A stretch of 59,156 nucleotides of DNA from Melioribacter sp. (GTDB lineage: Bacteria; Bacteroidota; Ignavibacteria; Ignavibacteriales; Melioribacteraceae), in NCBI GenBank assembly GCA_023250955.1, contig JAHEZQ010000018.1:1-59156 (forward strand), written 5' to 3'. Below, piece after piece: positions 9,388 to 33,475 of this stretch. The position numbers and the translations under genes were made by a program. The stretch's first letter is position 1. Each line of letters opens with the position of its first letter. The notes under the pieces were generated by a model that saw only the letters and a program-made list of their open reading frames with translations, was not told the DNA's origin and did not search any database.

Positions 9388-10026
9388 ATGAAAAAAACTA
9401 TATTAATTTATTTTCTTACTTCATTATTAATATTAGCACAACAAGAAGCAGTAACTAAAGATGGGAAAAAGGTATTACTATATAATAATGGAACTTGGCA
9501 ATATGCTGCTGAAATCGTAACAAATAAGAATTCGAATATCAGTATTCCGGAAAAGCGTAATTTTAATCACCCGATTTTTTCTGAAGTTTCTAATTCACCA
9601 TTTCAATTTGTAACCAAATACGATAATCTAAAAGATAATACAACAGTTTCACTCAATTTAAAATTGAGTCAAATGGGTGAAGATTTAACCATTGGCTCTT
9701 TCTTTTCTTATAGCGGGAAGAATTTAATCACTCCGACAAATGTATCTCTACGATTTGTTGCAAGATCAGATGATTGGAAATATTTACGCAACGCTGAACT
9801 TGTTTTTTTTGTGGATGGTAGAAGAATTGAGCTTGGAGAAATGAAACGCAGTTTTAGCATCGGAATTGGGTATGTGCTTGAGTCCTTATCATTAACTATA
9901 CCGCTAAATACTTTTTTGGAAATTTTTAATGGGAAAGCAATAGAAGTAAAATTGTTTACAACTACATTTAAATTAACTGAAGAACAGTTGGAAGCATTCC
10001 GCGATTATGCGAGTAGAATGCAATAA
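9388..10026 (+). CDS. Secreted protein of unknown function (DUF3157-like N-terminus)
   Basis: A 212-residue exported protein. ATG 9388 is chosen because GGAGG (9379-9383) stands 4 nt upstream and the N-terminus MKKTILIYFLTSLLILAQQ is a signal peptide. An earlier ATG (9352) overlaps the preceding gene and would bury that signal. After cleavage comes TKDGKKVLLYNNGTWQYA, a short motif common in secreted Bacteroidota proteins. The remaining about 150 residues look beta-rich. It has no catalytic motif I recognise. Confidence 0.75.
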   Translation: MKKTILIYFLTSLLILAQQEAVTKDGKKVLLYNNGTWQYAAEIVTNKNSNISIPEKRNFNHPIFSEVSNSPFQFVTKYDNLKDNTTVSLNLKLSQMGEDLTIGSFFSYSGKNLITPTNVSLRFVARSDDWKYLRNAELVFFVDGRRIELGEMKRSFSIGIGYVLESLSLTIPLNTFLEIFNGKAIEVKLFTTTFKLTEEQLEAFRDYASRMQ

Positions 10027-10030
10027 CACT

Positions 10031-10205
10031 CTGAGCTGTTAGCCATCAACTTTTTAGCTAAGAACTTGTTGCTGAACGCTGATAGCTGATTGCCGAAGCC
10101 ATAAATTTTCCTTTTGTATAATTCTTGTTTTTTATAAGTTGTAAACAGAATACGGGGTACGGAAATTGGGGACCAAACAATTACTTCTTTTCTTCCAAGC
10201 ACTCA
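10031..10205. repeat. Dispersed intergenic repeat, copy B
   Basis: This is the longest copy together with D. The first part aligns with copy A. The second part aligns with D through ATAAATTTTCCTTTTG, TATAAGTTGTAAACAGAATA and GGGG, then AATTGGGGACCAAACA against AATGGGGAATCAAGCA, and on to TACTTCTTTTCTTC. It occupies most of the 280 nt between the secreted protein and the toxin gene. The rest of that gap (10206-10306) holds nothing recognisable. Confidence 0.72.
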
Positions 10206-10306
10206 CTCAATTTGTATTTCACAGATTTATTCAGCTGTCATGGTTACGCTTTCTCCGAAAGAGGAAAATGTTTTTGTATGTGGTTAACTAATTAGTTATC
10301 TTAATT

Positions 10307-10657
10307 ATGAAAAGAAAAATAATATTCTACAGTAATTACTTTTTAGATTTCTACTCTAAGCAAGATTCTAAAACAAAAGAAAAAATTGATTTTGTCCTTG
10401 ATCTTATTAGAAATGTTGAGAGAGTTCCAATTAAATTCTTAAAGTATTTAGAAGGAACAGATGGTTTATATGAAGTAAGAGTTTTAACTAATAAAAAAAG
10501 TATTAGGATATTCAGTTTTTTTGACGAAGGAAATTTGATAATTCTAATTAATTGTTTTACTAAAAAGAAATATAAAACACCAAAGAATGAGTTAGAAATA
10601 GGGATAAGATTAAAAGAAGAATATTTTTCAGAAAAACTGGAAAGGAAAAGTAAATGA
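10307..10657 (+). CDS. RelE/HigB-type (Gp49-like) toxin
   Basis: A basic 116-residue protein resembling the phage-derived Gp49-like/HigB branch of the RelE superfamily. The core LEGTDGLYEVRVLTNKKSIR, then an FFDEGNLIILINCFTKKK strand, followed by a TP...E helix, is typical. Such toxins are ribosome-dependent mRNA interferases. The toxin precedes the antitoxin, as in HigBA systems, and the two genes overlap by ATGA. It lies between repeat copies B and C, in a setting typical of mobile accessory genes. Confidence 0.85.
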   Translation: MKRKIIFYSNYFLDFYSKQDSKTKEKIDFVLDLIRNVERVPIKFLKYLEGTDGLYEVRVLTNKKSIRIFSFFDEGNLIILINCFTKKKYKTPKNELEIGIRLKEEYFSEKLERKSK

Positions 10658-10944
10658 AGAAAATAACCACTTTTGAAAAACACTTGAATAAACAATACGG
10701 TGAAAAAGGAACTAATCGCAGAGATAAATTTGAGGCTGATTCAATTGCTTTTCGTTTGGGAGAAATGTTAAAAGAAGAAAGAACGAAAGCAAAGTTAACT
10801 CAAGAACAACTAGCAGACAAAACCGGAACCAAGAAAAGCTACATTTCTAGAATAGAAGCCGGCAAAAGCGATATACAAATCTCTACTTTTTATAGAATTA
10901 TAAAACTTGGACTAAGTAAAAGATTAAAAATTTCTATAACCTAA
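10654..10944 (+). CDS. Xre-family HTH antitoxin
   Basis: A 96-residue DNA-binding antitoxin. The helix-turn-helix spans about residues 43-90, with LTQEQLADKTGTKKSYISRI as the recognition unit. It overlaps the toxin by 4 nt (ATGA), which couples their translation. Antitoxins of this type bind and neutralise the toxin and repress their own promoter. No clear palindrome is seen in 10206-10306. Confidence 0.88.
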   Translation: MKKITTFEKHLNKQYGEKGTNRRDKFEADSIAFRLGEMLKEERTKAKLTQEQLADKTGTKKSYISRIEAGKSDIQISTFYRIIKLGLSKRLKISIT

Positions 10945-11039
10945 TTCTTCCTTTTCAGTCATTGTGCGACCGTTACAGCAAATGAAATAAATTTCTTCTT
11001 CTCTTCGCCAATTTAATTACTATTAAAAAAGGTGAGATT

Positions 11040-11429
11040 ATGAAAAATTTAATTTTGTCGTCAGTATTTATTTTTATCTGTTCTTTGTTATTCATTAATT
11101 GTAATAATTCGAATTCAATTGAAGGCAAATCAAATCAATGGCTTAAGGGCAAGACAATCTCCGCAAAGGTTACTTATGAGAAATATGGTTTTGTCGTTCT
11201 ATTACATAACGAAACTGTGAAAGACTTTAATCTTGAAAATGTTCATTTTACTTTTATTGACAAAAGTAATAATAAAAAATCTATACATCCTTTTGCTTCG
11301 AGTGGTGCTTGGTTACAACCAGATAAATACTTTGAATTTCCGCGTTACGGAAATGGCCAAGAGACTTTAGTTAACGTTTCTATTTTGCAAAATGACAAAA
11401 CTATAGAAACATTTTCGGTTACATTTTAG
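11040..11429 (+). CDS. Putative lipoprotein, unknown function
   Basis: A 129-residue protein starting with a hydrophobic signal (MKNLILSSVFIFICSLLFINC), in which Cys21 may be lipidated. The -1 residue is Asn, unusual for the classical lipobox. An AGGTGAG ribosome site precedes ATG 11040. The mature part is likely an all-beta domain of immunoglobulin-like type, judging by alternating hydrophobic strands. I recognise no family. It lies between the toxin-antitoxin pair and repeat copy C. Confidence 0.65.
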   Translation: MKNLILSSVFIFICSLLFINCNNSNSIEGKSNQWLKGKTISAKVTYEKYGFVVLLHNETVKDFNLENVHFTFIDKSNNKKSIHPFASSGAWLQPDKYFEFPRYGNGQETLVNVSILQNDKTIETFSVTF

Positions 11430-31553: not shown

Positions 31554-32867
31554 ATGGATCTTGTAAAAAAAATATTTGATGCGGGAGTTGTTGGAGCGGG
31601 TGGAGCGGGATTTCCAACTCATGTTAAAGCCAAATCAAAGGTCGAATTTGTTTTAGTAAACGGTGCCGAATGTGAACCGTTGATACATAAGGATTTTGAA
31701 TTGATGAAAAATTTTGCACCGGATATTGTAAACGGTGTTGACTTGATGATAAAGCAAACTTCTGCTAAGAAATCCTATTTTGGGATTAAAGCAAAAAACA
31801 CAGCAGCTATTGAAGTTGTTGAGAAGAATTATACGAATGGAAAAATTGAAACTTGTTTACTAGGTGATTTTTATCCAAGTGGTGATGAATATGAATTAGT
31901 TTATTCTGCAACAAAAAGATTGATCCCTCCTTATGGATTGCCTCTTGATGTCGGTTGTGTTGTAAATAATGTTGAAACTTTTTACAATATTTCACGTGCT
32001 ATTGAAGATAAACCTGTAACACAAAAATTTGTATGCATTGCAGGATGTGTTAAAAATCCTTCATCATTTTTTGTCCCTATCGGTACAACATTAAAAGAAC
32101 TTATAGAACATGTTGGAGGAACAACTGTTCCTGATTATGGAGTTTTTGTAAGTGGAATATTGATGGGCAAACTTACATTCGATCTTTCTGAAGTAGTTAC
32201 GAAGACTACAGCTGGTATAATTGTTCTGCCTTCTGATCATTACCTGGTTGATCGAACAAATAGATCTACTGAATCTAAAAATAGAATTGGTAAATCAGCT
32301 TGCGATCAATGTAGCTATTGTACTGAATTTTGTCCTCGCTATCTTCTTGGCTACGATGTGCAGCCTCACAAAGTAATGCGTTCACTTGGTTTTTCTACTA
32401 CTGGACAAGCTGTATGGAATCAATATGCAGATCTTTGCTGTTCTTGTGGTTTATGTTCTTTATATGCATGTCCGGAAGATTTATATCCGCGAGAAGCATG
32501 CGATCAAGGAAAAGTTGAAAATAAAAAGAATGGTACAAGATACGAGCAGCAGAAACCTGTTAAAGTTCATCCAATCAAAGAGGGGAGACGGGTTCCACTA
32601 AAACAATTAATGAAGAGAATTGATGTATTGAAATATGATGCGCATACCCCCTTCACAAAAAATTCTCCTAATCCATCACAAGTAAAAATATTATTGAAAC
32701 AGCATGTAGGAATTTCAGCTGAACCTGTAGTTCGACTTGGAGACGTTGTTCATGAAGGAACATTGATTGGTGACATCGAAGAAGGTAAACTCGGCGCAAA
32801 GGTTCATGCTTCAATTTCTGGAAGAGTAACGCATGTCTCGGATGAGTTTGTAAGAATTGTGAAATAA
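31554..32867 (+). CDS. pduS: PduS/RnfC-like flavo-iron-sulfur protein
   Basis: A 437-residue redox protein. The N-terminal GAGGAGFPTHVK and NGAECEP motifs belong to the Complex1_51K/RnfC fold that binds FMN/NADH. An SLBB-like segment follows, then two [4Fe-4S] clusters: Cys250/253/256/260 and Cys295/298/301/306. The C-terminal lipoyl-like RnfC half completes it. PduS is a cobalamin reductase and electron-transfer protein of microcompartments. Pairing with a PduT-like shell protein immediately downstream supports PduS over RnfC. No other rnf genes are present. Confidence 0.85.
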   Translation: MDLVKKIFDAGVVGAGGAGFPTHVKAKSKVEFVLVNGAECEPLIHKDFELMKNFAPDIVNGVDLMIKQTSAKKSYFGIKAKNTAAIEVVEKNYTNGKIETCLLGDFYPSGDEYELVYSATKRLIPPYGLPLDVGCVVNNVETFYNISRAIEDKPVTQKFVCIAGCVKNPSSFFVPIGTTLKELIEHVGGTTVPDYGVFVSGILMGKLTFDLSEVVTKTTAGIIVLPSDHYLVDRTNRSTESKNRIGKSACDQCSYCTEFCPRYLLGYDVQPHKVMRSLGFSTTGQAVWNQYADLCCSCGLCSLYACPEDLYPREACDQGKVENKKNGTRYEQQKPVKVHPIKEGRRVPLKQLMKRIDVLKYDAHTPFTKNSPNPSQVKILLKQHVGISAEPVVRLGDVVHEGTLIGDIEEGKLGAKVHASISGRVTHVSDEFVRIVK

Positions 32868-32870
32868 ATA

Positions 32871-32900
32871 ACTCATAGATTATCATTTAAATCTGTGAGT
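32871..32900 (+). promoter_or_regulatory. Stem-loop between the PduS- and PduT-like genes
   Basis: ACTCATAGATT (32871-32881) pairs with AATCTGTGAGT (32890-32900) with one T-G wobble and an 8-nt loop. No T-run follows, so it is not a classical terminator. It may be an mRNA processing or stability element that sets the shell protein to electron-carrier ratio. Confidence 0.55.
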
Positions 32901-32923
32901 AATAAATTAAAAAGGAATAACAA

Positions 32924-33475
32924 ATGGAAATGAATTCACTTGGTCTTATAGAAATGACAAGCATTGCTGCCGGAATGCAAGCGGCAGATATTATGCTTAA
33001 AACTTCACAAGTTGAATTGATCTTATCACGCACAATTTGTTCTGGCAAATATATTGTTCTAATCGGTGGGGAAGTAGCAGCTGTTCAGTCTGCAGTTGAT
33101 GCTGCTGCAAACCAAATTGATTTTGCAGTGATTGATACATTCGTTATCCCAAATGTTCATAAAGATATTTTCCCAGCTCTATCTGGACATTCTGATGTTA
33201 CGCTACTCGAAGCTTTAGGTATTATCGAATCATTCTCTGTTGCTTCACTAATAGAAGGAGCCGACGCCGCTGTTAAAGCTGCTAACGTAAGAATAATTGA
33301 GATCCGTCTTGCTATGGCACTTGGCGGAAAAGCATTTTGCACATTAACAGGAGAAGTTGCCGCCGTAACAAGCGCTGTTGAATCCGGTGCAAAAGTTATT
33401 GCCGATAAAGGATTACTTGTAAATAAAATTGTAATCCCTCAACCGCGACCGGAATTATTGAGTGAGATGATTTAA
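32924..33475 (+). CDS. pduT: PduT-like tandem-BMC shell protein
   Basis: A 183-residue protein made of two BMC domains (about 4-85 and 92-175). The sequence follows PduT closely: SLGLIEMTSIAAGMQAADIM at the start and EALGIIESFSVASLIEGADA at the second domain. Cys39 in RTICSGK matches the pore cysteine that holds a [4Fe-4S] cluster in PduT trimers. It should form a pseudohexameric tile that conducts electrons across a microcompartment shell. An AAAGGA site precedes ATG 32924. No hexameric or pentameric shell gene is in this window. Confidence 0.9.
   Translation: MEMNSLGLIEMTSIAAGMQAADIMLKTSQVELILSRTICSGKYIVLIGGEVAAVQSAVDAAANQIDFAVIDTFVIPNVHKDIFPALSGHSDVTLLEALGIIESFSVASLIEGADAAVKAANVRIIEIRLAMALGGKAFCTLTGEVAAVTSAVESGAKVIADKGLLVNKIVIPQPRPELLSEMI

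Follow-up and report, generated by a model that had tools for sequence, protein, structure and literature searches.

A solitary PduS/PduT gene pair in Melioribacter as the probable electron outlet of a dispersed, deoxyribose-phosphate-type microcompartment

A two-gene pair encoding a PduS-like oxidoreductase and a PduT-like shell protein, found in a 59,156-nucleotide stretch of the Melioribacter sp. contig JAHEZQ010000018.1 (the window), is probably a satellite of a dispersed bacterial microcompartment (BMC): a FRAG-type metabolosome, resembling those for sugar phosphate utilization (SPU), that would act on deoxyribose phosphate and from which PduS and PduT would export the electrons of NADH. 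At the level of sequence, the intact and adjacent pair co-occurs with BMC-H and BMC-P shell genes, with a DeoC bearing an N-terminal extension and with a tailed acetylating aldehyde dehydrogenase (AldDH), all encoded elsewhere in the genome. From these features we infer that the enzymes would be encapsulated, and what biochemistry the proposed metabolosome would perform. Organelles of this kind have been described before; what we propose is the substrate, the cargo and the part played by the pair.

Both open reading frames are intact, with the boundaries originally predicted (Table 1). The combination of Complex1_51K, SLBB, two 4Fe-4S sets and a C-terminal RnfC_N domain places the first product among the PduS oxidoreductases; it scored 238.7 against the rnfC model, just under the cut-off of 245.95, and a PduS search of its own genome gave no second copy at E 0.001. 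The two cysteine sets that the original prediction had assigned to this protein are present at the named residues and invariant in the alignment. These cysteines are spaced as in Citrobacter PduS (C264xxC267xxC270xxxC274 and C309xxC312xxC315xxxxC320), an NADH-dependent and PduT-binding enzyme for which a GxGxxG-type motif has likewise been reported (PMC2982820). The second product has the tandem BMC fold of a PduT-type BMC-T protein, by both Pfam and structural modelling. Loss of this fold on modelling had been named as grounds for abandoning the prediction; instead, the AlphaFold2 model (pLDDT 91.4) superimposes on PduT 3pac with a TM-score of 0.92, at 41% sequence identity, and the solved structures of PduT (3pac and 3n79) and 3nwg match the protein across almost its whole length. 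The pore cysteine expected of such a protein is likewise where it had been predicted, at Cys39, and the [4Fe-4S] cluster that it would hold is itself a prediction. Against TIGR02526 (eut_PduT) the protein scored 118.8 bits, below the cut-off of 250.3, and it is therefore named PduT-like rather than PduT in the strict NCBIfam sense. The pair thus resembles PduS-PduT of the Salmonella and Citrobacter Pdu BMC in the cysteine spacing of PduS and in a BMC-T fold with a pore cysteine, but sits outside any pdu operon. A PduT-like shell protein has also been put forward as a redox carrier in the Eut organelle of Listeria (PMC8547011).

Table 1. Features of the pduS/pduT-like pair, in positions of the window. 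Aligned rows are the window and 74 of 80 named loci; six cut or fragmentary loci were left out.
Feature	Position	Strand	Basis
pduS-like gene, 437 aa	31554..32867	+	ORF; Complex1_51K (FMN/NADH-binding), SLBB, dicluster 4Fe-4S (Fer4_17) and C-terminal RnfC_N by Pfam; RnfC structures matched
GAGGAG (GxGxxG) nucleotide/flavin motif, residues 14-19 of PduS-like protein	31593..31610	+	sequence
First 4Fe-4S Cys set of PduS-like protein, Cys250/253/256/260	32301..32333	+	conserved in 75/75 aligned rows
Second 4Fe-4S Cys set of PduS-like protein, Cys295/298/301/306	32436..32471	+	conserved in 75/75 aligned rows
pduT-like gene, 183 aa, tandem-BMC (BMC-T) shell protein	32924..33475	+	two BMC domains by Pfam, 154 bits; matches to 3nwg, 3pac and 3n79; AlphaFold2 model with Foldseek
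Codon of pore Cys39, predicted ligand of the trimer's shared [4Fe-4S] cluster	33038..33040	+	aligns with Cys of 3pac and 3nwg; conserved in 75/75 aligned rows

Upstream of the pair in the window lie genes for a pyrE-like phosphoribosyltransferase, an M64 peptidase and a SpoIIE-type phosphatase (Pfam), as previously described. The claim that no hexamer or pentamer gene flanks the pair in the window also holds for the whole of contig C36 (79,807 bases), which yielded no other BMC-domain or BMC-P match. Gene-neighbourhood comparison, a check put forward with the original prediction, found the pair adjacent throughout and mostly without shell genes nearby. In all 20 relatives fetched, pduT adjoins pduS; the SpoIIE phosphatase gene lies 5' of pduS in the window, in each of the 13 relatives examined from the same family and in a single genome from a second one; six genomes of a third family differ in the surroundings and keep the pair together. 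Among at least 80 named PduT loci from the genome collection, PduS adjoins PduT in 77, and in the remaining three PduT is <300 bases from the end of the sequence. Other shell genes accompany the pair in four of these loci, namely three compact clusters (L234, L236 and L246) and one locus with a second BMC-T (L245). Many of the loci are short; 35 extend ~10 kb to both sides, and 33 of those 35 contain no other shell gene by neighbour profiles which recovered, as a positive control, BMC-P and BMC-H of the Melioribacter genome and E. coli EutN and EutM, all of them proteins used in building the profiles. This isolation, and the start of the pair one base after the phosphatase gene amid housekeeping genes, would suit a soluble NADH:acceptor relay working outside any compartment, with a BMC-T trimer that no longer belongs to a shell, a reading weighed below against the gene content of the genomes.

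In the compact Desulfuromusa loci L234 and L236, relatives of the pair (PduS 56-58% and PduT 70-72% identical) lie embedded: unlike in the window, the pair is clustered with BMC-H, BMC-P, AldDH and a second BMC-T. The gene for this second BMC-T (35-38% identical) is directly 3' of pduT, at about 10000-11150 in both loci. At least 14 of the named loci come, by title, from Acidobacteriota; the available sequence of these loci, which in six of them spans ~10 kb to either side, showed no other shell gene. A quick tree placed the Acidobacteriota rows together with two rows from Ignavibacteria metagenome-assembled genomes, nested in a larger Ignavibacteria set; transfer of the pair is possible. In one single-contig relative (G018; L146:9347-10656), pduS is split into two open reading frames and pduT is intact.

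The remaining shell genes are found elsewhere in the genome, bearing out the satellite option of the original prediction. The assembly (3.26 Mb in 67 contigs, rated 100% complete) has BMC domains on C36, where the pair is, and on C41 (two BMC-H), and six BMC-P on C27 (two), C42 (three) and C54 (one); together with DeoC, the acetylating AldDH and RpiB, these two BMC-H and six BMC-P occupy five contigs other than C36 (C27, C30, C41, C42 and C54). A complete compact BMC locus, which would have made the pair an ordinary satellite, did not emerge from the genome-wide BMC and BMC-P search and was rejected: no locus of this genome was found to hold BMC-H and BMC-P together, and the shell genes and probable enzymes are scattered. 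The scatter is not an effect of assembly, because single-contig relatives show it too. In G048, PduS is at 1.56 Mb, AldDH at 1.91, BMC-H at 2.64, DeoC at 3.06 and BMC-P at 3.39 and 3.52 Mb, and in G047 PduS is at 1.41 Mb, AldDH at 2.08, BMC-P at 2.70, BMC-H at 3.09 and DeoC at 3.75 Mb, with the parts >100 kb apart in both; G018 has 10 kb between BMC-H and DeoC, with the remaining parts scattered. The second BMC-H on C41 (L011:4112-4810) carries a ~150-residue C-terminal extension for which no Pfam family was found, and relatives likewise have long matching frames (about 156-420 aa).

Co-occurrence was tallied by hand from search tables for 57 genomes, Melioribacter sp. included, with 59% identity or more taken to denote the same PduS. 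This PduS is present in 42 genomes, two of them with a fragmentary copy (G009 and G029) and one with a copy broken by a stop (G018). BMC-H accompanies it in 40 (best BMC match at or below E 1.4e-28; the top match of G002 and G011 had only the strength of PduT and does not show BMC-H), and BMC-P in 41, the exception being G009, which is 84% complete. All 42 genomes thus have BMC-H or BMC-P, and 39 have both. On this co-occurrence the outside-compartment relay was rejected; with the BMC fold and Cys39 retained, and with BMC-H, BMC-P, DeoC, AldDH and RpiB on other contigs of the same genome, we regard it as highly improbable. The two options originally offered have accordingly parted ways: the shell is encoded elsewhere, and a pair operating without a compartment is disfavoured.

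The probable cargo of the satellite's compartment begins with DeoC (TIGR00126, above cut-off), encoded on C41 ~7 kb from the BMC-H pair (L011:11684-12547). The model match starts at residue 67 of 287, leaving an N-terminal extension of ~66 residues, for which no Pfam family was found. Residues 20-40 of the extension contain a conserved stretch around FYCxGxTCxGWERNV, whose second cysteine is present in 30/30 sequences (that of the Melioribacter genome included) and the first in 28/30. By hydrophobic moment the N-terminal helix was amphipathic in none of 28 sequences at p<0.05 (in two further sequences of the set of 30, the pattern by which the helix was located was missing), and it is therefore not a canonical encapsulation peptide.

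Extended DeoC was found in 41 of the 42 genomes with this PduS (G039, 98% complete, gave no DeoC match), and AldDH in 40: it is missing from G009 and from G029 (68% complete), where a 40%-identical match to the tail was counted as absence, and is represented by a fragment in G008. Among all 47 genomes with extended DeoC, 45 have AldDH, and the DeoC frame contains a stop in three (G003, G031 and G044). Six genomes (G006, G031, G032, G036, G040 and G054) carry BMC genes, BMC-P, extended DeoC and AldDH, the last as fragments only in G006 and G031, without this PduS; G036, G040 and G054 are 98-100% complete, and the pair therefore looks optional rather than essential. DeoC is unextended in nine of the 57 genomes (in G038 by a divergent match), none of which has this AldDH; six of the nine lack BMC-P, and the other three (G034, G041 and G052) have BMC-P and a divergent PduS located, by coordinates, a few kb from shell genes. 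This divergent PduS (43-45% identity) also occurs near other BMC genes in G055, where it stands beside the dispersed set. Within one genus (g40), G054 and G055 have both extended DeoC and this AldDH, and G052 and G056 have neither.

Whether the DeoC extension follows the shell, as predicted, was examined next across the class, using 245 Ignavibacteria genomes at least 90% complete, a hand-tallied sample that overlaps the 57 genomes and consists of related, not independent, members, for which a Fisher p-value does not give a real probability. DeoC was scored as extended where the match started at query residue 27 or earlier, as unextended at 58 or later and as intermediate at 31-57. BMC-P was present in 85/85 genomes with extended DeoC, 5/55 with unextended DeoC (G034, G052, G085, cut by a contig end, G114 and G196), 1/10 intermediate genomes and 6/95 unclassed genomes, in which the DeoC row was not listed or there was no match. 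A different, unalignable extension would score as none, and G114 and G193 do have long open frames; among the extended genomes, G264 has a single, weak BMC-P match (E 7.3e-9). A hand count put 41 of these 85 extended genomes outside the order.

Two further enzymes carry regions of the kind that could direct them to a shell. AldDH is encoded on C54, ~14 kb from BMC-P; its best model is acetylating acetaldehyde dehydrogenase (612.6 bits, just under the cut-off of 620.1), and its C-terminal helix is amphipathic in 25 of 30 sequences, that of the Melioribacter genome included (24 distinct helices). RpiB, on C30, has ~60 extra N-terminal residues; for the 22 solved isomerases listed, no alignment starts before residue 41. 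Compared with the N-terminal end of E. coli EutQ, the extension gave a match scoring 65, against a shuffled mean of 26.6 and 0/1000 shuffles as high; a match to EutT was weak (7/1000 shuffles as high). In Salmonella, EutQ residues 1-99 carry sfGFP into Eut BMCs, and H1/H2 bind the shell (PMC12487888). Pfam assigned no family to the RpiB extension (best E 0.21), a PDB search with it returned one match at E 0.97, and amphipathicity of its N-terminal helix was unsupported (p=0.53). DeoB, above its cut-off, is encoded on C27 (L012:7445-9741) upstream of the BMC-P pair, with one open reading frame, PIN-like by eye, between them. A motif search for further tails covered the fetched loci. A search for a PduL-type phosphotransacylase, a possible agent of CoA recycling in the lumen, was negative; this result tells against the proposed metabolosome, as do the non-amphipathic DeoC helix, the stops in three extended DeoC frames, the missing DeoC match of G039, the six genomes that have the other parts but not this PduS, and the low TIGR02526 score.

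Taken together with the pair, these enzymes suggest a route in which DeoC would make acetaldehyde inside the shell and AldDH would convert it to acetyl-CoA with formation of NADH. PduS, docked to the inner face of PduT, would oxidise this NADH, and the electrons would pass the shell through the [4Fe-4S] cluster of PduT to a cytosolic acceptor, so that NAD+ would be regenerated inside. An alcohol dehydrogenase may take the place of PduS/PduT as NAD+ recycler. PduS might instead act as a cobalamin reductase, as proposed in the Pdu system, since the Citrobacter enzyme reduces cob(III)- and cob(II)alamin (PMC2982820). The assigned DeoC, acetylating AldDH, RpiB and class II aldolase are, however, not known as B12 enzymes, and we consider this role quite unlikely here.

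Somewhat less unlikely, though still doubtful, is that the pair mainly serves a different module. Contig C42 (L013:3981-10406) bears a BMC-P triplet and, ~5 kb away, a class II aldolase with a C-terminal extension, a combination that occurs in only part of the genus by BMC-P counts and is possibly a second cargo module. Such a module would be PVM-like and would act on deoxyhexose phosphate rather than depend on DeoC; Melioribacter roseus has seven BMC-P over five loci, and a locus of it was classed as PVM-like (Axen et al. 2014, PMC4207490), and a class II aldolase of one relative (G027) bears a tail like that of AldDH (40% over 60 residues). Six or more BMC-P, however, are found in only 8/57 genomes, as against the 42 with this PduS, and the tail of the C42 aldolase shows no significant amphipathicity (p=0.14), nor does that of the class II aldolase on C54 (p=0.57). 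We retain the DeoC-based metabolosome as the probable partner of the pair.

The dispersal of this metabolosome matches what is known of FRAG BMCs, whose shell genes occupy up to six genomic places, which count Ignavibacteriae among their hosts and which, as FRAG1-7, are numbered among the BMC types for which no signature enzyme is obvious (Sutter et al. 2021, PMC8217296). Here, too, shell genes lie in several separate places (C36, C41, C27, C42 and C54, and likewise in G047 and G048), with a BMC-P triplet on C42 in addition to the pair on C27 and the single gene on C54. The present system goes beyond that description in that DeoC, RpiB and AldDH with BMC-type extensions are proposed as cargo and PduS/PduT as the electron outlet; the word PduS is absent from the main text of PMC8217296 (supplements aside), which for the HO type does describe a distal DeoC, in some cases with N-terminal extensions resembling encapsulation peptides. 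In the open-access literature, supplements aside, we found no paper assigning DeoC/RpiB or PduS/PduT to the FRAG type.

The signature of SPU BMCs is DeoC (PF01791) with RpiB (PF02502), accompanied by AldDH, and SPU loci are gene clusters. The Melioribacter genome has all three enzymes, DeoC and RpiB each with an extra N-terminal region, and DeoB near BMC-P, but no single locus unites them: DeoC is on C41, RpiB on C30, AldDH on C54 and BMC-P on C27, C42 and C54, and PduL was not found. As the genes do not share one locus, the system is designated SPU-like only. PduS is mentioned in Atribacterial SPU loci (Axen et al. 2014, PMC4207490), and in the BMC Caller paper one unclassified locus, in which two of the SPU signature enzymes occur, is taken to be probably a new subtype of SPU (PMC9052549).

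What is new here is the ~66-residue DeoC extension that tracks BMC-P, the EutQ-like N-terminal domain of RpiB and the amphipathic tail of AldDH. On balance, we lean towards a more general view, in which the FRAG microcompartments of Ignavibacteria would be exploded deoxyribose-phosphate metabolosomes for catabolism of the DNA sugar, with extended DeoC, EutQ-tethered RpiB and tailed acetylating AldDH, and pduST a separable two-gene module, found as an isolated pair in Acidobacteriota as well, that would link lumen NADH to the cytosol. The function of microcompartments is usually inferred from gene neighbourhoods, an approach that fails with dispersed organelles; cargo extensions combined with co-occurrence supply a BMC type that was catalogued without a substrate with one that can be tested, and the PduS/PduT electron outlet is seen to be a separable unit. 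Ignavibacteria, including Melioribacter, are thereby candidate systems for asking whether electrons really cross a BMC shell.
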